Assembly (NCBI RefSeq): GCF_041080865.1
Contig: NZ_CP160906.1
Span: 1,984,001 to 2,048,000 of the forward strand
DNA from: Psychromonas sp. MME1
GTDB lineage: Bacteria > Pseudomonadota > Gammaproteobacteria > Enterobacterales > Psychromonadaceae
Reading direction: 5' to 3'
DNA length: 64,000 nucleotides
The first letter of the stretch is position 1. Every line of letters begins with the position of its first letter. The position numbers were made by a program, and so were the translations under genes. The notes under the pieces were generated by a model. It did not search any database and was not told where the DNA came from. It worked only from the letters and a program-made list of their open reading frames with translations. Positions 34,094-62,447 of the stretch are shown in pieces.

Positions 34094-35089
34094 CTATAAA
34101 TCGGGATCTAAGGTTATATCAAAATCGCGAAACTGTAATGATATTTCAGGATCCTTTGGAATCGGTAATGTGCGCGCTTTTAGGGCTGCACGTTTGGCAG
34201 ATGCACATAACTTATCATCGCCTTTACTTTTATTTGCAGATAAGACTAAACCATCTGGAGCAAGACGAATAGCAAGCGTACATGTTTTACCTTTCATATC
34301 GGCATCAACTTGCCAATTTCGGCTGATTTTGTCTCGAATTAATGCTTCATAACGCTTAATTTCAGATAACTGCTTAGCACTTTGCGCACTAGAAAAAGCT
34401 TCTGCAAATTCATCTTCCATTAGCCTTTCCAATTCTGCTTTACGAAGACGCTCTTTTTCAGCAGCCTCTTTTTGTGCTTTCTCTTTCGCAGCCTTCTCCT
34501 GCGCCTCTTTTACTGCTTTCTCTTTGGCCGCTTTTTCCTGTGCTTCTTTAATCGCTTTCTCTTTGGCGGCCTTCTCCTGCGCCTCTTTTATTGCTTTCTC
34601 TTTCGCCGCTTTTTCCTGTGCTTCTTTAATTGCCTTCTCTTTCGCCGCTTTTTCCTGTGCTTCTTTTACTGCTTTCTCTTTCGCAGCCTTCTCCTGCGCC
34701 TCTTTAATCGCCTTCTCCTTTGCCGCCTTTTCCGTCGCTATCTTTTCAGCCTGTATACGCTCTGCTTCCTCTCTTTTACGTTCAGCTTGCGCTTTTTCTT
34801 CTTTTATTCTCTGTACTTCCCTTTGCTTGCGCAATGCTTCTTCCTTTTGCAAGCGCTCTTTTTCTTGACGAATTGCTTGTTGTTTTTTCTGTTCAGCTAA
34901 TATTTTATCTTTTTTTCGCTGCGCCAAATCATCAAACAATTTTTGTTCAACCAATGATGCATTAATAATATTTTCTTTCGGTTTATCCTTTGGCAAAGTA
35001 AATTCAATATTCATTAATAAAATACCGCCAACAATAAGATGTAACGCGACAGCTGTAATAAAAGCAATTATCGTTGTGCTATTTTTCAT
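34094..35089 (-). CDS. tolA: TolA, energy-transducing periplasm-spanning protein
   Basis: 331 residues. Domain I has one membrane helix (about 8-28). Domain II is a long Lys/Glu/Ala helix (about 50-225) with seven near-identical 13-residue repeats. Domain III (about 235-331) has the two Cys residues seen in [13 protein letters not shown] and [12 protein letters not shown]. TolA connects TolQ-TolR to TolB-Pal. It overlaps tolR by 4 bases. Repeat number probably varies between strains. Confidence 0.95.
34460..34732 (-). repeat. Seven tandem 39-bp units coding the TolA helix
   Basis: Residues 120-210 of TolA consist of seven units of [13 protein letters not shown] (x is I, V or Q), the last ending KEAA. 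At DNA level the units are similar but use different synonymous codons (GAGGCG or GAAGCA), so some may have spread by duplication of adjacent units. Recombination and assembly collapse are both possible here. Confidence 0.95.
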
Positions 35090-36894: not shown

Positions 36895-38032
36895 TTAATA
36901 AGCTGAATGTTTATATTTAGCCATATATTGCTTACCTAAACGCCCAAACATTTTTATATAACCCCATGAGGTATAAAGAGAACGATAGGCAAAAAGATAA
37001 CAGCAGCAATAGTCATAATATTCAGCGTCATCTCACTTGATACCGCATCCCACACAGTAAAGCTCATACTCGGATTAATGCTTGATGGCATCACAAATGG
37101 GAAAATACTCAATGCAAAGGTCATCAATACTGCCGCTTGTGTCAAGCTAGTAAATAAAAATGCAAAGCCTGCTCGGTTAAATTTAGTCGCAATAACGGCT
37201 AACAGCGGCAGTAATAATCCCAACGCAGGCGCTAACATCATTATTGGGTATTTCTCATAGTTCAAGAACCATGCTCCCGCCTGTAGTTCAGCTGTTTTTA
37301 ATAATGGATTAGAGGGGCCATTAAGATCGCCAATCGCGGTGATCACATAACCATCAATACCGTAATATAACCAAACACCTGCAATAGCAAATAACAGAAC
37401 AGCTAATGGCGCGACAACAAAAATAACACGTCGAGCACGTGCATGTAACTCATCTTCGGTTTTCATCTGTAACCAAGCAGCACCTTGCATCACAAATAAC
37501 ATTAAGCTGAATACCCCCACCAATAACGCAAAGGGATTAAGCAGGGCAAAAAAGCTTCCTAAATACTGTGCACGTAAAAAATCATCAAGTACAAAAGGGA
37601 TCCCCTGCAATAAATTAGCAAAAGCGACACCAAAAACAATTGGTGGCACCGTACTACCTGCAAAGATCCCCAGTCCCAGCTTTTACGCCAGCGAGAGCTT
37701 TCTAGTTTACTACGGTAATCAAAACCAACGGGCCTGAAGAATAATGAGAATAAAGTCAGCATCATAGCAATATAGAAACCAGAAAAAGCAGTCGCATAAA
37801 CAGCAGGCCAAGCTGCAAAAACAGCCCCCGCAGCTAACACTAGCCAGACCTGATTACCTTCCCAATGTGGCGCAATACTATTTATCATAATACGTCGTTC
37901 ATCATCGGTTTTTCCGATAACAGGCAGCAATGTACCGACTCCCATATCGAAACCATCAGTGATAACAAAACCAATCAACAATACGCCAATCAGTAACCAC
38001 CAAAGTAATTTTAACGTTTCATAATCAAACAT
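36895..38032 (-). pseudogene. cydB: CydB, cytochrome bd oxidase subunit II, with two frameshifts
   Basis: The full protein (379 residues if repaired) is spread over three frames. Frame 1, [20 protein letters not shown] to RWRKSWDWG, breaks at a GGGG run (37668-37671), where a fifth G would give [18 protein letters not shown]. Frame 2 runs to IFLPIVLF and breaks at a TTT run (36975-36977), where a fourth T gives FYTSWGYIKMFGRLGKQ. Frame 3 ends in YKHSAY at 36895. All segments are conserved and hydrophobic as expected. Two undercalled homopolymers in one oxidase gene point to sequencing error. Confidence 0.9.
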
Positions 38033-43333: not shown

Positions 43334-43414
43334 ACCAACATACCTTTAAAAAATCCCACGGGGTCAAAATAGTAGCCTACTGTACGCTTTGCGCATTGCT
43401 AGCGCAAAATAAAT

Positions 43415-45585
43415 TTACAGCCCATCGATAAATTGCTCAACTAACTTAAATACCTCTAAACAAGCGTTCCCCGTACAATAACATGGCGATTAAATGCAAT
43501 TTCCTCTAACTTTTTCTGTGATGAGCAAACCGTATTAACTATCTCCCTTGCGCCACTAGGATCAACGAGAGGATCATTACTACCCTGTATAATTAATAAA
43601 GGAGCACGAACCTTAGCCAACTTATCCCCACAGAGGGCTTGTAATTCGGTAAATTGACGCAATCCACTGATATATATTTTATCGTAATTGCTGTCGCTAT
43701 TTTCACTCTCATTTTCTAACCAAGGTAAAGTGCCCCGCTTAAGCGATAAATTATGTAGCGCTTTATTCCATCTATCTAACATTGGAGATAATTGGCTCGA
43801 TTTTTGTCGTAAAGTCAAAGCGGGATTAATTGCGACAATACCCGCTAATTGTTTGCCTTCACTACTGCCCTTGAGTAAGGCGAGTAACGCTCCGGCAGAA
43901 AATCCAACAACGATGACTTTACGGTAATAATGGCTCAGCAGCGCATATCCTCGTTGCACAGAATCTCTCCACTTCTCGACAGTGGCATTTTCCAATTCAG
44001 AAGGATGTGTCCCATGCCCCTCTAAACGCACCAAATAAACGCCATATCCCAGTTTATTCAAATACTCACCCAGCGCTAACATTTCCAATGGGGAAGCCAA
44101 AAAACCATGGATAAGCACGATACCGGGCTTGCTTTTATCGCCCACTAAATGGCGCGGCTTACCCACGTCTCGTGATTTACTTTCGTCTTTGATATAGGAA
44201 CGCATTCGCTCTTCCTCATAGATAGAGCAGTCTCGGTTCATAATGGCATCGGCTACCTGATAGGTTAATTTAGCCGCAGAGTTAGCCAGTAATTTTTTTA
44301 TCGCCGCAACGCTCTCCTCCATCACCTCAAACTCATTGGCTAATACGGCCGTCGTATTATCAAGGCGCACGCGATGGAAGGCATGTTGCAGTTTTATTTT
44401 ATTATGATCGACATATAGGAGACCATCTTCTCGCCGTAACACTTTTTCCGATTCAGCGAGGGCAATAATACTCTCATAGGGTTTATAGGGGTCTTCAGCA
44501 ATGAGATTAATCACCCTATCATCAATACTTTGATGCACGCGTCGCTGCCCATGATTTTTTATCATGACAATAGCAAGGTAGATAACTTGTTTAAAGGTTT
44601 GCTCAGCAATTCCCTGAACGGGGACATAACGCAATGCCGTTGCGACCAAATGGTCCATATTGATAGATAAACGTTTATAGATTCGGTGCATAAATAGCCG
44701 CGTTAAGCGGTGACGCATCAGCAGCATCAACCAATTAATTTTCCTCTGAGTCGATAAAAAAGGTAAAAATAGATTAAATAAACGACGGTAGGGCTTACAG
44801 AAACTACGCACATCCAGTGGATGTCCAAAGGAGATAGACATATCACTCTCTTGTAGTAATAGCTTTCCCTCAACTAATAACTCTTCTTCTACTTTCGGGG
44901 GAAGATCTTTTAATAAAAGCTGTACGCCCGTTGCCAATAAATTCCTACCTGGGCGTAATGGGTAGTAGGTAATATTGACAGGCACAATACATAGGTCTAA
45001 CGGGTCGAGATTGCCCGGACCACGCAAATGATAAGTATCTTGGTAAAAATTAATCAACTTTTCATTATTATCAGCAATCGCCTGTTTATAATCTTCTTTC
45101 AATAAAAAACTTTTCAATGCTAAGGTCGCTGCCCCCGTATAAGGTGAGCGCTTTATATGGGGTAAGTGTAATTGTAAGCGTCCATTTTCAACCACTTTCT
45201 TATTTTTCATCATTGACCCTTCAGGAAAAATCACCCAGTTATAACTACCACGCATCAATTCAGATATGATTTTTTCATCCCGGCCCTTAAGATTAACGGG
45301 AAAAGCCCCCACTGAGGTTAAAAATTGCCCAAACTTTCCAACGAACAATGCGCTGTCAGCTAAAGAATGGACCATTTGCCCATTGAATTGGTACAATACT
45401 TTGGGCAACAGGCAGGTCTCAATACGGGTAAAATGGTTGACAACAAATAAGGTCGGGTTAGCACGCGTATTTTCTAACCCCTCAACAGAAATAGAAGTAC
45501 GCGTAAATTTTTCCAACGCACTGATCAACAGCCCTGATATTCGAAAGGATCGACTCGCTTTTTCTAGCCTGCTCTCATATAACAT
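43415..45585 (-). CDS. Acyltransferase/alpha-beta-hydrolase fusion protein, frameshifted near the C-terminus
   Basis: The N-terminal domain (about 35-260) is PlsC-like: NHFTRIE at 50-56 (an H-x4-E version of the usual H-x4-D motif) and FPEGS at 120-124. Residues about 260-480 are not recognised. The C-terminal domain (about 485 on) is an alpha/beta hydrolase: IHGFLASP oxyanion region, nucleophile Ser563 in GFSAG, Asp671 in GSNDPLVD, His701 in NRHVI. The open frame stops at 43456 just after the His. In another frame the expected ending CLEVFKLVEQFIDGL continues to 43415, so one base is probably missing near 43473-43476. A possible role is transfer or release of acyl chains. It is the last gene of the lipid operon, with AAGGAG before its ATG. 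Confidence 0.8.
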
Positions 45586-45590
45586 AGTGA

Positions 45591-47486
45591 TTACTCCTTA
45601 TCATTAACCGGATAGATCCCCCTCTCTAACCAAATTAAATGATCCTTGAGCAGACTGTCACTTATATTTTTTGCCGTTTTACGCTGTTTAAATGAGAGCG
45701 CATTATATTCAGCCTTAATACGTTGACGTGCTAATCGACAATAGTGCTGCGCTAAGTCGATTGCATTACGGTTTCCTTGTTGGTACTGATTTTGTGCGTA
45801 TGAACAGGTAGCAGCAATGGCGAAAATTTCACTACCAATCGCCATTAAATGACCTAATATCTCCTGACGTAATTCCAGTTTTTCACGATGAATTAACAAT
45901 TGTAAAAACAGCGTTCGCGCCAACTTATGGGCTGCACGTTCACAATAACTCAGCTGTTTTGCCAAATTGCCACCTGCGATGCTTGTGACAGTTGTAATCA
46001 AACTCATGTTAATGAACTGTTTTGGATACCAACTAAGATAAGCTTTACTCAATTTAATCATGGCCGCTTTTTTGCCCTTTGCATCAAGACCCGGTTGCAG
46101 TAAATCCTGCGCCAGTTTTAGGTGACTATCAAGCGCCTCTCGACTTAAAAAAAGCTCCATGATATCCGTTGTCCCCTCAATAATACGATTGATTCGACAA
46201 TCTCGTAGCATACGTTCGATGGGAAAGGGTAATTCCCCCCGCGCTTTTAATGAGCTGGCTTTCTCATATCCACGCCCACCAAAAAACTGCACCGTTTCAT
46301 CGACCACCTGCCACGCCATTTCACTACAAAACATTTTCGCCATCGCCGCTTCCATGCGAATATCAACATCGCCTCTGTCCGCTAAATGGCTAGTTAACCA
46401 AGTGACGGATTCCATTGCCAAGGTGGTCGAAGCAATAAAAGCAAGACGATTCGACCCTTTTTCATGCTCTCCAATTGGCAACCCCCATTGAACTCGTTGA
46501 TTGCCCCAACGTCGTGTCATATTAACGCACTGTTTTGCCATACCCGTGGAGGCAGCCGGGATAGTAAGTCGCCCAGTATTAAGGGTTGCCAAGGCAATTT
46601 TAAGGCCACGCCCCTCTTCTAAAATACGATTTTCAACGGGCACCGCAACATCAGTAAAATGCAAAAGACCATTTTGAATACCACGTATCCCCATAAAATC
46701 ACAGCGGTGCCGTATCTCAATACCCGGCGATTTCCCTTCCACAATAAATGCCGATATTTGCTTATTCTCTTTACCATTAATTATTTTAGGGGCGGTGCAT
46801 GCCATCACCACCAAGTAGTCTGCAATCAAGCCATTGGTACACCAGAGCTTTTCGCCATTAATGAGGTAATGGGTGCCCGCTTCATTTAAGGTGGCGGTGG
46901 TTTTCATGTGTGCAGGATCGGAGCCAACACTTGGCTCCGTTAATGCGAAAGCAGAGATTGCCCCTTCTTTAAACCGCGGTAAAAAACGTTGTTTCTGCTC
47001 CTCTGTTCCAAATAATTTCAAGGGTTGAGGTACACCAATACTTTGATGTGCCGATATTAAAACCGCGGTCGAGCCACAATGGCTGGATATAGCTGCCATG
47101 ACACGATTATAATTGACCAAAGAAAGCCCTAATCCACCATATTTTTTATCCACTTTCATGCTGAAAATACCGATTTTTTGTAATGCTTGAATCGCCTCCT
47201 CTGGAATAACTCGCGTTTCATCAACTAAATCAGCATCCAATTTTTCACGTAGGATAACCTCCACATCAGCAACCAGTTGATCGCCTATTTTCTTATCTTC
47301 CTCACTTTGTTTTGGAAAGGGGAAAATCATCGCTTTATTAAATTCGCCCATGAACAGGGATTTGCCAAAACTAGGATGATGCCATATCGACTCGCGAGCA
47401 TTTTCGGTCAGATGTAATGATGACGCCTTCGCATCGCTCATTTTCGATGTATCTATGACCATTTTATTGTCATCTTCTGAGTTCAT
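45591..47486 (-). CDS. Acyl-CoA dehydrogenase family protein
   Basis: 631 residues, longer than a typical 380-residue enzyme and similar in size to VLCAD/ACAD9-type dehydrogenases. Core signatures are FALTEPSVGSDPAHMKTTAT, WCTNGLIADYLVV, QFFGGRGYEKAS and RIIEGTTDIMELFLSREAL, the last carrying the likely catalytic Glu. A C-terminal helical extension (about 460-631) fits membrane-associated long-chain enzymes. Its ATG overlaps the preceding stop (ATGA) and has a perfect AAGGAGGT site. FAD-dependent acyl-CoA oxidation is inferred. Confidence 0.88.
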   Translation of the reverse strand: MNSEDDNKMVIDTSKMSDAKASSLHLTENARESIWHHPSFGKSLFMGEFNKAMIFPFPKQSEEDKKIGDQLVADVEVILREKLDADLVDETRVIPEEAIQALQKIGIFSMKVDKKYGGLGLSLVNYNRVMAAISSHCGSTAVLISAHQSIGVPQPLKLFGTEEQKQRFLPRFKEGAISAFALTEPSVGSDPAHMKTTATLNEAGTHYLINGEKLWCTNGLIADYLVVMACTAPKIINGKENKQISAFIVEGKSPGIEIRHRCDFMGIRGIQNGLLHFTDVAVPVENRILEEGRGLKIALATLNTGRLTIPAASTGMAKQCVNMTRRWGNQRVQWGLPIGEHEKGSNRLAFIASTTLAMESVTWLTSHLADRGDVDIRMEAAMAKMFCSEMAWQVVDETVQFFGGRGYEKASSLKARGELPFPIERMLRDCRINRIIEGTTDIMELFLSREALDSHLKLAQDLLQPGLDAKGKKAAMIKLSKAYLSWYPKQFINMSLITTVTSIAGGNLAKQLSYCERAAHKLARTLFLQLLIHREKLELRQEILGHLMAIGSEIFAIAATCSYAQNQYQQGNRNAIDLAQHYCRLARQRIKAEYNALSFKQRKTAKNISDSLLKDHLIWLERGIYPVNDKE

Positions 47487-49635
47487 AATACCTCCTTAGC
47501 CTGCGCGTAAAATCCTTTCTGAGCAGCGACCAACTCCGTTAAATAGGGGCTAACTTGATAGCGTTCAGGGATAATTTCATTAAGAGCGTTACATTTATTG
47601 ACGATAGTCTCCAAACCAACACTGTCAGCCCAGCGGCACAATCCACCTCGCCAAGGCGGGAAGCCCGTGCCCATCACCATCGCCAAGTCCAACTGTCCTG
47701 CATTAGCAACGATATTTTCCTGCAAACAATGTGCGGCTTCGTTAACCATAATAATCATTAAGCGGTCAATAATATCCTCTTCACTGTGCGCTTTTTTCGC
47801 CGTTGTCCCCGTAAAATTGGCCACCAATGGATTGACTGTGACTTCCTTACCTTGATATTTATAAAATCCAGCACCCCCTTTCTTTCCTAACAGTTTTAAA
47901 TCCTCATATACGGTTGTGAGCAGCGGACTCACCGCCATGCGCGAACCAAAACCTTCCTGTAGCGTTTTAGCAACCTTATAACCAACATCAATGCCCACCT
48001 CATCGGCTAACTGAAAAGGTCCCATCGGCATACCAAACTCAGTGATCACGCGATCAATCATCTCAATATCAGCCCCCTCTTGTAGTAAATAGGCAGCTTC
48101 ATTCATGTAGGGTAATAAAATTCGATTAACTAAAAATCCCGGGCAGTTAGCCACAACAATTGCCGTTTTCCCCCAACTTTTAACCATAGCAACCGCACGC
48201 GCAATGGTCTCATCACTGCTTTTTTCGCCGCGAATAATCTCCACCAAAGGCATACGATTAACGGGATTAAAAAAGTGCATCCCACAGAAATTTTCTGGGC
48301 GATTTAGCACACTCGCCATCTCGGTAATAGACAATGCAGAAGTATTACTACAGAGCAATGTCGAATCACTGATGTGCGTTTCTGTCTCCGCTAATAGCTG
48401 TTTTTTGATAGTGATATTTTCCACAATCGCTTCGATCACCACTTCTACATGGGCAAAACCTTCATAATTTACCGATCCACCAATGCGATTCATGGCCCGA
48501 TCAATGTCACCTTGTTGAAGGCGACGACGTTTTTTTAACTGGGCAAAATAATTACTCGCCTGTGCATAACCTAATGCGACGGCATCCCAACTAATATCCT
48601 TCATTCTGACGGAAAGTTTGTGCTGAGATAATAGCCACGCGATACCGCCCCCCATTACCCCGGCACCAAGCACTGCTGCGTGCTGAGGCGGCGTAATTTC
48701 GCCCTTATAATCTGCTCCCGTAGACTTTTTAACCGCTTCGGTTAAGAAAAACAGTTCGATCAAATTTTTCGATATATCGCTAACCGCTAATTTGGAAAAG
48801 GCCTCAAGTTCACGGCTGATGCCCTCATTAAAACTGCATTTAGTCGCGACAACATCGAGCACGGCAAGTGGAGCGGGATAAAAACCTTTACTGCTTTTCA
48901 GAACACTTTTGCGCGCTTGTTTAATCACCCATGCACGGCCCCAGGATGTCTCTAAGAGTTGATTCATGATGCGTTGTGTTTTAGCTCGAGGCTCCCTATT
49001 CGCCTTTAACTCATCTCTAAAGTTCGGATCGCGCAACTGTTGTAAAAAGCCTTCACATTGATCATTTAATAACGCAGAGGCGATCAACTTATCTATCAAT
49101 TTTATTTTTTTCGCTTTACTGCCATTAACGGTTTTTCCTGCCAAAATAATATCCAATGCATTGGGTAAACCGATTAATCTTGGTAAGCGTTGTGTTCCCC
49201 CCACCCGGGAATAATTCCTAAGCGAACTTCAGGTAACCCAATAGTTGTTTTAGGATTATCCGTGGCGATACGGTAATCGCAGGCTAGCGCCAACTCGCAG
49301 CCCCCACCAACACAGGCACCATCAATAATCGCGACGGTGGTTTGTGGTAATGCGGCGATACGGGTAAACAACATTTGCCCAACTTGCCCCTTTTCACGTG
49401 CAGTTGCTAAGTCATTAATATCGCGTAATTCCTCAATATCGGCCCCCGCAATAAAAATATCTTTTTTAGCACTTTCAAAACTGACCACTTCATACTGCGT
49501 CTCTTTACTAAGCTCTGTGACCACTTGAGCTAGCTCAGACATAACAGCTGTGGATAACTTATTTACTCTTTCATCGGGAAGGTCAAAAATAACACGTAAT
49601 AACCAATCGTTTTTTTCCATGCGAATTGTTTTCAT
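47483..49635 (-). pseudogene. FadJ-like enoyl-CoA hydratase/3-hydroxyacyl-CoA dehydrogenase, frameshifted
   Basis: A bifunctional beta-oxidation enzyme, about 717 residues if repaired. The hydratase domain has FIAGADIEELR and GACVGGGCELALACDYR, with the second catalytic Glu in GLPEVRLGIIPGWGG. The dehydrogenase has VLGAGVMGGGIAWLL and the catalytic His in CGMHFFNPVNRMPLVEII. The frame breaks at a run of six G (minus strand, 49197-49202); seven would give PGWGGTQRLPRLIG exactly. The start at 49635 overlaps the thiolase stop (TAATG). It resembles FadJ more than FadB in neighbours, but no exact symbol is claimed. Confidence 0.87.
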
Positions 49636-50924
49636 TACTCTACCTCCAGTGCCAGAGATGCACCTTGACCACCACCAATACAAAGTGTCGCTAATCCTCT
49701 TTGCCCCCCTCTTCTGCGCAATTCATGCAACAAGGTTAATATTAATCGCCCGCCCGTTGCGCCAACGGGATGACCGAGTGCAATCGCCCCACCATTGACA
49801 TTTAACTTGGCGCGATCGATGACCCCTATGGCTTTATCTCTGTGTAGATATTGCTTTGCAAATTGGTCACTCGCAAAGGCACGCTCATTGGCGATCACCT
49901 GCACGGCAAAAGCTTCATTTAGTTCAATTAAATCGAAATCATCGAGTGTCAGCCCCGTTTTATCTAATAAACAGGCTGTAGAGTAAACGGGCCCAAGTCC
50001 CATTCGCGCACCATCAAGTCCGGCATAGCTGTAATCACGTAAATATCCAAGGGGTTTTAAACCGCGCTGTTTTGCCGTTGACTCCGCCATCACAGTGAAA
50101 GCTACCGCACCATCGGTTATCGGACAGGCATTACCAACGGTCACACTACCTGCATCGCGGTCAAAATAGGGACGTAATTTAGATAATGCCACACTGCTTT
50201 GATCACCGCGCGGGCCATTATCAAGGTGTTGAATATGTTTATAATCAGGTGCACAGGGAACAGGCACAATTTCATCGCTCAAACGTCCATCGGACTGTGC
50301 CTGTGCTGCACGTTGATGACTAAGCAATGCAAACTCATCTTGCTCTTGGCGGGTAATGGCAAATTCACGGCATAACACTTCCGCCGTTTGCCCCATATTT
50401 AACCCACAAACGGGGTCAGTTAATCCGAGCTCAATACCAATCACTGGTTTTAAAAAATGGGCGCGGAATGTCAATAGCGCCTTTAATTTATCCGGCAAGC
50501 TTTTAGCCATCATTAGCCGAGTAAAAAAATCACTCATTTGCGCACTCAATAATAGTGGAATATTAGACATCGATTCAGCCCCACCTACGACCGCGATCTC
50601 GATTTCACCAGCAAATATTTTATTCGCGGCGGTGGTCATCGCTTCCATACCCGACGCACAATTGCGATTAACCGTATAAGCGATGGTGGTTGAAGGAAAA
50701 CCACCCTGTAAGGCGATCACACGAGCAATATTAGCGGCATGACCGGGCTGAGCCACATTGCCCATTATCACCTCGTCAATGTCATTATAATTGAGTACCG
50801 ATCGTGCCATTAACTCACGAACAACAATGGCACCAAGTTGATCCGCCTGCATCCCCTTAAAAGCCGTACCCGCTTTACAAAAAGGGCTACGAATCCCTTC
50901 AATTATCGCTAATCGCTCTTTCAT
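49635..50924 (-). CDS. Acetyl-CoA C-acyltransferase (FadI-like thiolase)
   Basis: 429 residues from ATG at 50924, preceded by AGGAG. Catalytic residues: Cys in VNRNCASGMEAM, His in NGGAIALGHPVGATGG, Cys in LCIGGGQGASLALE. It cleaves 3-ketoacyl-CoA in the last step of beta-oxidation. The long loop region (about 120-180) is as in FadI. It lies directly upstream of the FadJ-like gene in the lipid operon. Confidence 0.9.
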   Translation of the reverse strand: MKERLAIIEGIRSPFCKAGTAFKGMQADQLGAIVVRELMARSVLNYNDIDEVIMGNVAQPGHAANIARVIALQGGFPSTTIAYTVNRNCASGMEAMTTAANKIFAGEIEIAVVGGAESMSNIPLLLSAQMSDFFTRLMMAKSLPDKLKALLTFRAHFLKPVIGIELGLTDPVCGLNMGQTAEVLCREFAITRQEQDEFALLSHQRAAQAQSDGRLSDEIVPVPCAPDYKHIQHLDNGPRGDQSSVALSKLRPYFDRDAGSVTVGNACPITDGAVAFTVMAESTAKQRGLKPLGYLRDYSYAGLDGARMGLGPVYSTACLLDKTGLTLDDFDLIELNEAFAVQVIANERAFASDQFAKQYLHRDKAIGVIDRAKLNVNGGAIALGHPVGATGGRLILTLLHELRRRGGQRGLATLCIGGGQGASLALEVE

Positions 50925-50980
50925 ATCCTCTCCTATCAATGCTTAAAATGGATCACAGTTGATGGTCTTTAGTAATTATT

Positions 50981-52750
50981 TTATTCGCTATGATGGCTAT
51001 ACATAGACGTTATCAGCTCTGCATGTCGCTCACTCACTTTTCCTCGGCAAAGTTTCATGGTCGGCGTTAATAAACCTGACTCAATCGTCGGCTCCTCGGT
51101 AATTAACCTGAAGCTACGTATTTTTTCCCAGTCATTAATCGTTGCATTGATTTGATCGACGTGTTTTTGCAAGGACTGCATAATGCAATGATCCGCATCC
51201 TGAGACTCAGCACATTCAGGCGAGTTTTGATAGGTGGTAAATGCTCTTTGGAAAGCTTCGCCTTCCGCAAAAAGCAGTGCGCTAACAAATGAGCGACCAT
51301 CTGCAATCACCATTGCAGCATCAACTAAAGGATGTTTAAGTAGAGCTTGCTCAAGCGGTACGGGCGAAACAAATTTACCCGTTGAGGTTTTACAAATATC
51401 ACTCAAGCGTCCAGTAATAATCAAATTTCCATGTTTGTCGAATACTCCCGTATCGCCAGTACAAAACCAGCCGTCATCATCAAAACGACTAGCCGTATAC
51501 TCGGGCATTTTATGATACCCCAGCATGATGTTTGGTCCCTTACAGCGAATCTCCCCCTCTTCTCCCCGAATTTCCACCAGCACATCGGGAAAAGCGGGGC
51601 CAACTGTTCCTGGATGATTATGACCAGGATAATTAGCAGTTAACACTGGCGATGTTTCCGTTAAACCATAACCTTGATAAATGGGAATACCTGCATTAAT
51701 AAAAAAACGACATAAATGTTCATCGAGAGCGGCACCACCAGCAATGACTGTTTTTAATCGACCTCCTAAACCCGATCTGATTTTTTTAAATAGCAATTTA
51801 TCTGCGGCAAATTTACTGAGCGCATTAGCATTATCTTGATGCCCGACTTGCACACTCCAATTGCCCAGTGCTTTTATTAAAGAAGAGGAGCTGTCTATTT
51901 TTTCATGTAATTTCGAATAGAGTTTTTCTAAAATACGCGGCACCATGGTCATTATCGTAGGCTCGACTATCGGTAAATACTCTTTAAGCTTTTGCACGTC
52001 ATCAGCAAAATAGATGGGCACCCCCTGACAGAAATAGGTATAAACCACCGTACGTTCAAAACAATGCGCAAGAGGTAATGCACTGAGCGCCCTATCTTTA
52101 CTATGATCCAGAGGATAACGCTGTATAGCAGCAACGATTTGGCTACATAGATTATTATGGCTAAGGACAACACCTTTAGGATCACCAGTGCTACCTGATG
52201 TATAAATAATGGTGGCAATATCATCGGGCTTTAGCTGTGCACAAAGTTGTCGATATAGCTCCGGTTTAGCCAGTGATAATTGGTCGCCTTTTTTTAGCAA
52301 ATCGTTAAAATTGACATAGTTACTTTTTTGCTGATGGGCAACATCTCTTAAGATTACTTTTTTTAATGACTTGCATTCACTTTGTGCAAAAGTCCATAAC
52401 TCAGGATCATCTACATAGGCAAAACGGCAAGCTGAATCTTTGAGTTGATAGGCAAGATTTTGTTTGCTGATTTTAGGGAATACTGCGGTACTGTAACCAC
52501 CCGCTAACATTATGGCCAAATCCACCATTAACCACCAAGGGCTAGAATTAGCAATAATAGCTACCACATCGCCACGCTTTAAGCCTAACGCAGCAAATCC
52601 CAAAGCCATACGACGAATAGTTTCTAAAAAATGTTCAGATGAAAGGGGAGAAAAACCATCTCCTCGACGATAAAAAAACGCTCCACTACTACGGAAAGTG
52701 GTAAAAGATTGTTGCACAAGTTCTGGTAATGTCATTCCTTCTTTCGTCAT
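50981..52750 (-). CDS. Long-chain fatty acyl-CoA synthetase (AMP-forming)
   Basis: 589 residues of the ANL superfamily. The P-loop-like motif is IIYTSGSTGDPKGVVLSHNN, with YQGYGLTETSPV (A5) and GWFCTGDTGVFDKHGNLII (A7), and K near the C-terminus (LLTPTMKLCRGKVSERH). It resembles FAA/FadD15-type long-chain synthetases rather than E. coli FadD. It is the first gene of the lipid operon; the 335 bases upstream of it carry no other gene that I recognise. Confidence 0.9.
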   Translation of the reverse strand: MTKEGMTLPELVQQSFTTFRSSGAFFYRRGDGFSPLSSEHFLETIRRMALGFAALGLKRGDVVAIIANSSPWWLMVDLAIMLAGGYSTAVFPKISKQNLAYQLKDSACRFAYVDDPELWTFAQSECKSLKKVILRDVAHQQKSNYVNFNDLLKKGDQLSLAKPELYRQLCAQLKPDDIATIIYTSGSTGDPKGVVLSHNNLCSQIVAAIQRYPLDHSKDRALSALPLAHCFERTVVYTYFCQGVPIYFADDVQKLKEYLPIVEPTIMTMVPRILEKLYSKLHEKIDSSSSLIKALGNWSVQVGHQDNANALSKFAADKLLFKKIRSGLGGRLKTVIAGGAALDEHLCRFFINAGIPIYQGYGLTETSPVLTANYPGHNHPGTVGPAFPDVLVEIRGEEGEIRCKGPNIMLGYHKMPEYTASRFDDDGWFCTGDTGVFDKHGNLIITGRLSDICKTSTGKFVSPVPLEQALLKHPLVDAAMVIADGRSFVSALLFAEGEAFQRAFTTYQNSPECAESQDADHCIMQSLQKHVDQINATINDWEKIRSFRLITEEPTIESGLLTPTMKLCRGKVSERHAELITSMYSHHSE

Positions 52751-60104: not shown

Positions 60105-62447
60105 ATGCTATTACGGCAGCTCTTGATAGTACTAAGCACTCTTTTTATCTTCTCTTGTTCAGATACCACAAAAGAGATGAATGAAGATTATGGCACACCG
60201 CAAGTCCGCGATCGCATACGCCCTAACGATGACCCCCTCGCTATTGATTACCTAACACAAGTAAAGCCTATAATTGATCAACGCTGCGTTGTTTGCCATG
60301 GCTGTTACGATGCCCCCTGCCAGTTAAAACTCACCTCACCAGAGGGGATAGATAGAGGCACCTCAATCGAGAGTGTTTATGCCACTCGTCTATTTGAAAC
60401 TGAACCTACTCGATTATTTATCGATCATAAAACAACGCAAGCGTGGCGCGATAATCATTTCAATTCCATATTAAATGAACGAGATCAGACACCGACCGCA
60501 AACTTGCAAGGCAGTGTGCTATATCAACTACTAGTACAGAAAATGAAACATCCGCTTCCAAATGTCGCGGTACTGCCCGATGATTTTGATTTTTCTTTAG
60601 ATAGAGAGCAGCAATGCCCAAGTATCGAAGAGTTTGCTAGCTACGCGGAAGACAAACCACTTGCGGGCATGCCCTATGGCCTACCACAGCTAAGTAACAG
60701 CGAATTTAAAAAAATAGAGAAGTGGATTAGTCAAGGCGCACCAATGGCACAACCAATAGCACTCAATGACAATATGCTCGCTGAAATTGAAAAATGGGAG
60801 ATGTTATTAAATGGCAAGGATAATAAATCGCAACTAATCAGCCGCTATATTTATGAACATCTGTTTTTAGCGCATATCTATTTTTCAGAACAGACTACAG
60901 ACAATAACAAGCAACCGATATTTTTCCGATTGGTGCGTTCAACAACGCCACCAGGAACAGACGTGGATGAAATTGCAACGCGACGCCCCTACACAAAACC
61001 ACCCGTTGATCAATTTTACTATCGCTTACTTCGCGATACAGAAACCATATTAACAAAAACACATATGCCCTATGCACTGAACAAGGATAAATTAGCACGT
61101 TGGAATGCATTGTTCTATAAAGCTCATTTTAGCGTCGAAAATCTACCAAGCTACGAAAAGGGGTACGATCCGTTCAGCACATTTGCAGCTATCCCTGCAC
61201 ATTCCCGTTATCAATTTATGCTCGATGAAGCTCACTTTACGATTATGGGATTTATTAAGGGTCCCGTTTGCCGAGGACGAATCGCCTTAAATGTTATACG
61301 AGACAAGTTTTGGGTCTTTTTTGTCGCCCCAGAACTAACAAATTCAAAGGCGTATGACGAATTTATCCTGGGGCAAGCAGAAAATTTGCAATTACCATCG
61401 GACTATAGTGAAAATCATCTCGCTCTTACCACTTGGCATAAATTCTCTAAATTAGAACAAAAATACATTGCCGCACAGGACACTGCCTTAAAAAGTACCA
61501 AAAAAATAGATCAATACCTCGGTCTAAATGGTATCTGGAACGGTAATGAAAATGCTGGATTAACTATTTTTAGGCATGCAGATAATGCTCAAGTAGTAAA
61601 AGGGTTACAGGGTCCCCACCCTAAAACAGCATGGTTAATTAACTACCCCATTTTAGAACGAATTCATTACCTATTAGTTGCAGGCTATGATGTTTACGGG
61701 CGAGTAGGTCATGAATTAACCACACGGTTGTATATGGACTTTTTAAGAATTGAAAGTGAAATGGACTTCATCACCCTACTTCCGATTGGCAACCGCACCG
61801 ATGAAATTAATAGTTGGTACCTTGACGCTAATAAAGATTTAAAAACTTACTTTGATGAAAATAGTTTTTTCTTACATAAACAAAATAATTTAACCTATGT
61901 AACAAGTAACCCGAAAAAAGAGTTATTTAACAAATTAAAACAACACTACCAAGAGCCGTTAAGCACGACACAACGCGATAAACAACGATTGGATCTCGTT
62001 AATGAGCCCTTAGCGAGATTGAATCATTTACCAAACCACGCCGTTCAGCAATTATCACAGGCGAGCTTTATATTAGTTGAAGATGCCAATGAAGGAGAGC
62101 AACTATTTAGTTTAATACGTCACAACGCTCATAAAAATGTCTCTAGCTTGTTTCGTGCAGAAAAAATGCATCTTCCCGATCAAGATACCGCTGAAATATA
62201 TACGGGTTTATTAAGTAACTACCCTGAAACTATTTTTGCGTTCAAGGCTTCACAGCAAGCAGCATTTAGTCAACAACTTGCCGCAGTCGCTGATGCCGAA
62301 AGTTATGCGAAGTTACTGGATAAATATGGAGTTCGCCGCAGTAGTAAAAACTTCTGGGAGGTGAGCGATACAATTCATCGCTTATATCAACAAGGTGATG
62401 CGATTAACTCCGGTTTGTTTGATTATAATCGCTTAGATAATCGCTAA
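60105..62447 (+). CDS. cti: Cti, fatty acid cis/trans isomerase
   Basis: 780 residues. The lipoprotein-type signal peptide has Cys18 in LFIFSCSD. A c-type haem site CVVCH lies at 61-65 in DQRCVVCHGCYDAPCQLKLT, and the rest is the long Cti domain (YLGLNGIWNGNENAGLTIFRHADN; TTRLYMDFLRIESEMDF). Cti converts cis unsaturated phospholipid acyl chains to trans in the periplasm, stiffening the membrane during solvent or temperature stress. The lipobox suggests membrane anchoring. Stop overlaps arfB (convergent) by 4 bases. Confidence 0.93.
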   Translation: MLLRQLLIVLSTLFIFSCSDTTKEMNEDYGTPQVRDRIRPNDDPLAIDYLTQVKPIIDQRCVVCHGCYDAPCQLKLTSPEGIDRGTSIESVYATRLFETEPTRLFIDHKTTQAWRDNHFNSILNERDQTPTANLQGSVLYQLLVQKMKHPLPNVAVLPDDFDFSLDREQQCPSIEEFASYAEDKPLAGMPYGLPQLSNSEFKKIEKWISQGAPMAQPIALNDNMLAEIEKWEMLLNGKDNKSQLISRYIYEHLFLAHIYFSEQTTDNNKQPIFFRLVRSTTPPGTDVDEIATRRPYTKPPVDQFYYRLLRDTETILTKTHMPYALNKDKLARWNALFYKAHFSVENLPSYEKGYDPFSTFAAIPAHSRYQFMLDEAHFTIMGFIKGPVCRGRIALNVIRDKFWVFFVAPELTNSKAYDEFILGQAENLQLPSDYSENHLALTTWHKFSKLEQKYIAAQDTALKSTKKIDQYLGLNGIWNGNENAGLTIFRHADNAQVVKGLQGPHPKTAWLINYPILERIHYLLVAGYDVYGRVGHELTTRLYMDFLRIESEMDFITLLPIGNRTDEINSWYLDANKDLKTYFDENSFFLHKQNNLTYVTSNPKKELFNKLKQHYQEPLSTTQRDKQRLDLVNEPLARLNHLPNHAVQQLSQASFILVEDANEGEQLFSLIRHNAHKNVSSLFRAEKMHLPDQDTAEIYTGLLSNYPETIFAFKASQQAAFSQQLAAVADAESYAKLLDKYGVRRSSKNFWEVSDTIHRLYQQGDAINSGLFDYNRLDNR

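Follow-up and report, generated by a model that had tools for sequence, protein, structure and literature searches.

The stretch of DNA analysed here (the window) comprises 64,000 nucleotides of Psychromonas sp. MME1, in which five reverse-strand genes lie in the order ligase, thiolase, FadJ, acyl-CoA dehydrogenase, and acyltransferase-hydrolase fusion. The first (50981..52750) encodes a probable AMP-forming acyl-CoA ligase, whose best match is of the FadD11 type (243.9 bits, cut-off 950). It is followed by an acetyl-CoA acyltransferase (thiolase; 49635..50939) that scores above the TIGR01930 cut-off and is FadI-like, the FadI model being its best match but staying below its own cut-off; this is the sole PF00108 match above 40 bits in the genome. 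The FadJ/FadB-type multifunctional subunit (47483..49683) has FadB/FadJ models as its best NCBIfam matches and is split over two frames, with a C-terminal piece that on its own falls below the cut-offs. The acyl-CoA dehydrogenase (45591..47486) passes the Pfam cut-offs, and the ATG of the fusion gene lies 5 bases past the end of its ORF. The fusion gene is one ORF of 709 codons (43456..45585), a form kept in relatives; the first-pass annotation had placed its end at 43410, but the ORF stops at 43456.

Both domains of the fusion protein exceeded their Pfam cut-offs. The Acyltransferase domain (PF01553; residues 32-157, 45115..45492) scored 38.9 bits against a cut-off of 23, and the alpha/beta hydrolase domain (Hydrolase_4, PF12146; residues 486-703, 43477..44130) scored 79.2 bits against a cut-off of 27. 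Motif I of the acyltransferase reads H-x4-E within NHFTRIE, from His51 to Glu56 (45418..45435), and FPEG at residues 120-123 leads into a motif III, PEGSMMK (residues 121-127, 45205..45225), which is without the Arg of EGTR or EGGR. The hydrolase carries Ser563 as the nucleophile in GFSAG (43897..43899), Asp671 (43573..43575), and His701 (43483..43485). The first-pass annotation had read the variant motif, FPEG, and the triad from this one polypeptide, and all of them were found at the positions given above. It had also described the middle part as unrecognised; no Pfam domain was found in the window protein between Acyltransferase and Hydrolase_4, and residues 259-465 (44191..44811) are helical in the structure model described below and contain the invariant residues N309, H312, H351, and E418 in the alignment.

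Directly after His701 the frame breaks, and NACLEVFKLVEQFIDGL runs on in another frame of the same strand (43415..43470) to a stop at 43415. A C-terminal tail of this kind is present in 11/11 aligned relatives of the same genus, and a frameshift seems to have cost the window copy, as sequenced, about 17 residues at its C-terminus. The break adjoins a run of four G. Two other genes of the window, fadJ (47483-49683) and cydB (36954-38032), are each split over two overlapping frames, and the break in fadJ also adjoins a G run. These splits and G runs make sequencing slips in this assembly likely, and such a slip is the likely cause of the C-terminal break, while a real truncation of the window copy could be the alternative. 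Elsewhere in the window, a stretch rich in lysine, glutamate, and alanine repeats was noted at 34094-35089 in a putative TolA-like protein.

Distribution of the fusion as a single gene

Of 24 Psychromonas genomes, 13 carry the full-length fusion as a single gene, the nearest named relative being that of Psychromonas GLG-1 (72% identity), while 36 other genomes of the same order yielded short hydrolase matches or nothing, and no fusion. At the level of the class, a profile of the whole fusion matched 33 of 369 genomes at E 1e-20, some of them through the hydrolase alone, and a profile of the N-terminal half matched 24 of the 369, the source genome included. The N-half lay in a single open frame of 711-1026 codons in 22 of these 24 matches; the remaining two end at a contig edge (G417) or are broken (G371), and no clear stand-alone acyltransferase half was detected by this profile among the 369 class genomes. 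In another order, 31 of 120 genomes contained the fusion (E 1e-60), one of them aligned only to position 615 of 760, and two orders within the class contained it in 9/17 and 3/3 genomes, partial copies included. A sample of the phylum gave 8 matches in 398 genomes at E 1e-30, five at full length and three through the hydrolase only.

Since dozens of genomes share this architecture, the fusion is not a product of chance, and it is a genuine, widespread union of known domain kinds. An origin of the fusion by sequencing or assembly error, as would be expected if its homologues were always two separate genes, was rejected because the same single-gene form recurs across genomes. A literature search, which covered titles and abstract openings and few subscription papers, returned no description of an acyltransferase-hydrolase fusion; the domain kinds are known, and the combined protein is apparently undescribed. 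No plasmid record covering 80% of the query was found in a search for a mobile origin. One viral-collection contig (L172, 3001-4251) aligns near its end with residues 46-436 of the fusion and is perhaps host DNA.

The acyltransferase half, the middle part, and the hydrolase half

Conservation was assessed in an alignment of 54 rows, from which near-copies and three triple fusions (see below) were left out; the counts refer to rows with letters. His51 of motif I is kept in 52/53 rows and Glu56 in 53/53 rows, so that H-x4-E is a trait of the family. The site of the motif III Arg, position 125, is occupied by M in 51, L in 2, and I in 1 of the 54 rows, while the PEG of motif III and the Pro of motif IV are otherwise nearly invariant. 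In PlsC, the Arg of EGTR is placed for binding the phosphate of LPA, according to the part of the source available to us (PMC6688108). As this phosphate-binding Arg is absent in 54/54 rows, G3P or LPA would be unlikely acceptors, and the sequences point to a non-phosphorylated acceptor for the N-terminal head. Lys127, conserved in 53/54 rows, could be a partial stand-in for the missing Arg. One natural member (L046, 9602-11665) has Tyr in place of the His of motif I and Gln in place of the Glu of motif III, together with an intact hydrolase triad; its acyltransferase half should be dead, and its existence argues that the acyltransferase head can be dispensable.

PF01553 was matched by 27 of 29 members at E<=0.1 and by 29 of 31 N-halves at E<=1, and the score of the window protein above the cut-off of this domain places it in the LPLAT superfamily. 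A sequence search for a solved relative of the N-half gave 0 matches at E<=10, and the fold-search matches listed for the window model were hydrolases only. Judged from its sequence, the N-half is GPAT/LPLAT-like. It shares the PF01553 domain, the motif I His, the motif III PEG, and the motif IV Pro with PlsC/LPAAT and PlsB/GPAT. It differs from PlsC/LPAAT in that the signature NHxxxxD fails, with Glu in every row with letters, in that the EGTR Arg is replaced by M, L, or I throughout, and in that the fusion falls far below the cut-off of TIGR00530 (13.6 bits for the whole protein and 14.9 bits for the N-half against 102.95). The PlsB/GPAT motif I Asp and EGGR are likewise both missing; among 20 PlsB-type ORFs used for comparison, all have the Asp, by which they were picked, and 17 read EGGR. 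The genome carries a PlsB-type gene of its own, and replacement of PlsB by the fusion was accordingly rejected.

Residues 1-470 aligned with 16 PlsB-type proteins from motif I into the PlsB C-terminal region, with an hhalign score of 42.3 against 34.0 for the best of 24 shuffles. The middle part alone scored 20.0 against PlsB, with shuffles reaching 22.4, and GPAT_C (PF19277) was found in 2/31 N-halves (best E 0.015). Kinship of the middle part, a weakly PlsB-like region, with the C-terminal region of PlsB is suggestive only.

A structure model of the window protein was built from 54 sequences (mean pLDDT 84.6, pTM 0.84); an earlier model from 12 sequences, with L002 as the first row, captured the N-half poorly and was set aside. 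The structure prediction proposed in the first-pass annotation thereby gave a confidently modelled helical middle part and a hydrolase resembling monoacylglycerol lipases (MGLs), the fold search informing on the hydrolase half only. Residues 455-709 best matched the bacterial MGL 5xks (Z 29.7, rmsd 2.0 over 228 residues, 28% identity), with Est30-type esterases ranking behind the MGLs at Z 23-24. A profile search of the hydrolase agreed with the fold search, giving MGLs at E 6.6e-49, and no phospholipase was present among the profile and fold matches listed for the hydrolase. Across the alignment, Ser563 is S in 54/54 rows, Asp671 is D in 49 and E in 4 of 53 rows with one gap, and His701 is H in 53/53 rows. 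The PF12146 score, this triad, and an MGL as the closest solved structure identify a member of Hydrolase_4, and the C-terminal head would, by its closest match, be an MGL-like serine hydrolase. Its predicted fold and its triad are those of the bacterial MGLs of Bacillus H-257 and Geobacillus 12AMOR (PDB 3rm3, 5xks, 7e0n); those enzymes are separate chains of about 250 amino acids, whereas the fusion hydrolase is the C-terminal part of a longer protein and is 25-30% identical to them.

Neighbouring beta-oxidation genes and fusions with acyl-CoA ligase

The neighbourhood was compared in the window, 12 further Psychromonas loci, and 40 other loci chosen, at about one or two per genus and with three long-frame loci (L111-L113) included deliberately, from the 60 non-Psychromonas genomes that have the fusion or its N-half. 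Loci counted as linked had a beta-oxidation gene no more than 5 ORFs away on the same strand; the figures are raw counts, some contigs being short. Linkage was observed at 7/13 Psychromonas loci (window included) and at 14/40 others, and no such gene was observed at 6/13 and 26/40 loci, respectively. At least the dehydrogenase is retained upstream in six of the 12 other Psychromonas loci, one of which (L070) has the dehydrogenase only, split in two where the contig ends. The first-pass claim that the fusion ends a beta-oxidation operon holds for the window and these six loci, but not for the remaining six; in the 40 others, the fusion is more often the first gene or has no beta-oxidation neighbour.

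A frequent order elsewhere is fusion, ligase, thiolase, FadB/J, and dehydrogenase. A MerR-type gene follows the ligase in L120, L123, and L126 (Pfam was run on L120 only). Among the linked cases, L049 and L057, which are near-copies, are weaker in having only a FadB/J-related gene of 438-439 aa, as are L044 and L111 in having the dehydrogenase only, and an opposite-strand ORF lies in between in L111, L114, and L117. Mapped on the tree, linkage requires at least seven gains or losses. ACDH_C is missing from the window dehydrogenase but present in the FadE-like dehydrogenase of L119, and the ligases of the Psychromonas loci L059 and L060 share only 25-29% identity with the fused ligases described below. 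These differences in gene order, dehydrogenase, and ligase suggest that the association of the fusion with beta-oxidation genes probably arose repeatedly.

Three other Psychromonas loci (L169-L171) have the same thiolase-FadJ-dehydrogenase arrangement and no fusion in the fetched stretch, indicating that beta-oxidation does not need the fusion, which is an accessory. A thiolase with 60% identity or more occurs in 12/13 fusion-bearing and 6/11 fusion-free Psychromonas genomes, a weak co-occurrence. The available passages of the GLG-1 paper (PMC8027456) describe this organism, linked to the genome record through its isolate name, as representing a lipid-degrading population with the full set of beta-oxidation enzymes and no genes for intracellular glycerol degradation; the fusion is not mentioned in those passages.

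Triple fusions of acyltransferase, hydrolase, and ligase occur in three genomes (L111, 8224-12324; L112, 6059-9706; L113, 7547-11497). The ORF runs on into AMP-binding and AMP-binding_C in L111 (1367 codons) and L113 (1317 codons); so does that of L112, which has 1216 codons from its first Met before the contig stops and whose ligase part shares 71% identity with the L113 ligase part. Between the fused ligases and the separate ones of L114, L119, L120, L123, and L126, the identity is 48-64%. The ligase and fusion ORFs share four bases, the stop codon counted, in L120, L123, and L126. Because L111 belongs to a different supported clade of the tree from L112/L113, joining of the ligase probably happened twice. 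Aas also joins an acyltransferase to an AMP-forming ligase; an Aas-type model was not listed for the window N-half and was matched by 1 of 31 N-halves at E 0.25. No hydrolase is known to lie between the acyltransferase and the ligase of Aas.

A proposed role in lipid turnover

The ligase fusions and overlaps are the strongest hint that the ligase takes over the freed fatty acid, and the ligase fusions favour acyl release towards beta-oxidation. We give an even chance to the fusion being a two-headed enzyme of lipid turnover, in which the lipase feeds the ligase and beta-oxidation and the other head re-acylates a non-phosphorylated acceptor. The protein is probably cytoplasmic. Its MGL-like head would free fatty acids from intracellular acyl esters; these would pass to an acyl-CoA ligase, encoded nearby or fused in some relatives, and the resulting acyl-CoA would then enter beta-oxidation. 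The GPAT/LPLAT-like head, with its His-Glu dyad, would most likely take acyl groups off acyl-CoA or a lipid and pass them to a non-phosphorylated acceptor, and the protein as a whole could adjust how much acyl material sits in esters and how much in the acyl-CoA pool. Without regulation, a chain with both an acyltransferase and a lipase looks futile. The lipid remodelling or acyl release suggested in the first-pass annotation would each be a putative role.

Opposite activities in one chain would also fit editing of phospholipids of the Lands type, in which the hydrolase strips a phospholipid or lysolipid of a chain, the acyltransferase re-acylates a lysolipid carrying a head group, and the discarded chains are burnt by beta-oxidation, for example in adaptation to cold. 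The genus of the source organism is Psychromonas, the window encodes a fatty acid cis/trans isomerase (PF06934, 812.5 bits; 60105-62447, forward strand), and a motif III without Arg is compatible with lysolipids that have head groups. The hydrolase is closest to MGLs, with no phospholipase among its listed matches, and we consider such editing rather unlikely. It is quite unlikely, too, that the protein is active as a lipase only, with the acyltransferase-like half as a membrane- or acyl-binding scaffold. In favour of this reading are L046, in which His51 and Glu122 are replaced and the triad is kept, and the strong inhibition of mammalian LPAAT-alpha by an Asp-to-Glu change, as stated in the part of PMC6688108 available to us; against it, there is hardly any other variation in H-x4-E, PEG, and the motif IV Pro across the 54 rows, and an HX4E motif with His and Glu is functional in LpxL and LpxM, as far as the available text of PMC6286764 goes. 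These enzymes have the His-Glu motif in common with the fusion, but their family is absent from the Pfam matches listed for the fusion N-halves. LpxL and LpxM are not known to carry a hydrolase.

A synthase of neutral esters, resembling the plant phytyl ester synthases, would agree with the non-phosphorylated acceptor suggested for the fusion. The domain order of plant PES1 and PES2 is opposite to that of the bacterial protein. PES1 and PES2 (ELT family) combine an alpha/beta hydrolase and an LPLAT domain in one chain, and a PES2 homologue has the same two domain kinds (available passages of PMC9111173 and PMC12048435). The likeness is one of description: these are plant enzymes with an acyltransferase related to DGAT2 (PMC12048435), whereas the Pfam matches of the N-halves are to PF01553 and the 16 listed include no DGAT2-type family. 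The neighbours of the fusion are degradative where linked, and a ligase is fused to it in some relatives, so that we regard ester synthesis as improbable.

Returning to the turnover enzyme, we consider it unlikely that this bacterial family acts as a two-way valve between acyl esters and beta-oxidation, in which the MGL-like head would cut, the fused or overlapping ligase would activate, and the His-Glu head would recapture surplus acyl-CoA onto a non-phosphorylated acceptor. If true, a single polypeptide or a closely coupled pair of genes would provide the route from ester to acyl-CoA. The passage of acyl chains from internal lipids into beta-oxidation is less well known in bacteria than the uptake of fatty acids from outside. 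A conserved acyltransferase-lipase(-ligase) protein near beta-oxidation genes in several lineages would make this internal-lipid step testable, and lipid-degrading marine bacteria would be one example of a setting in which to test the hand-over of internal acyl chains.
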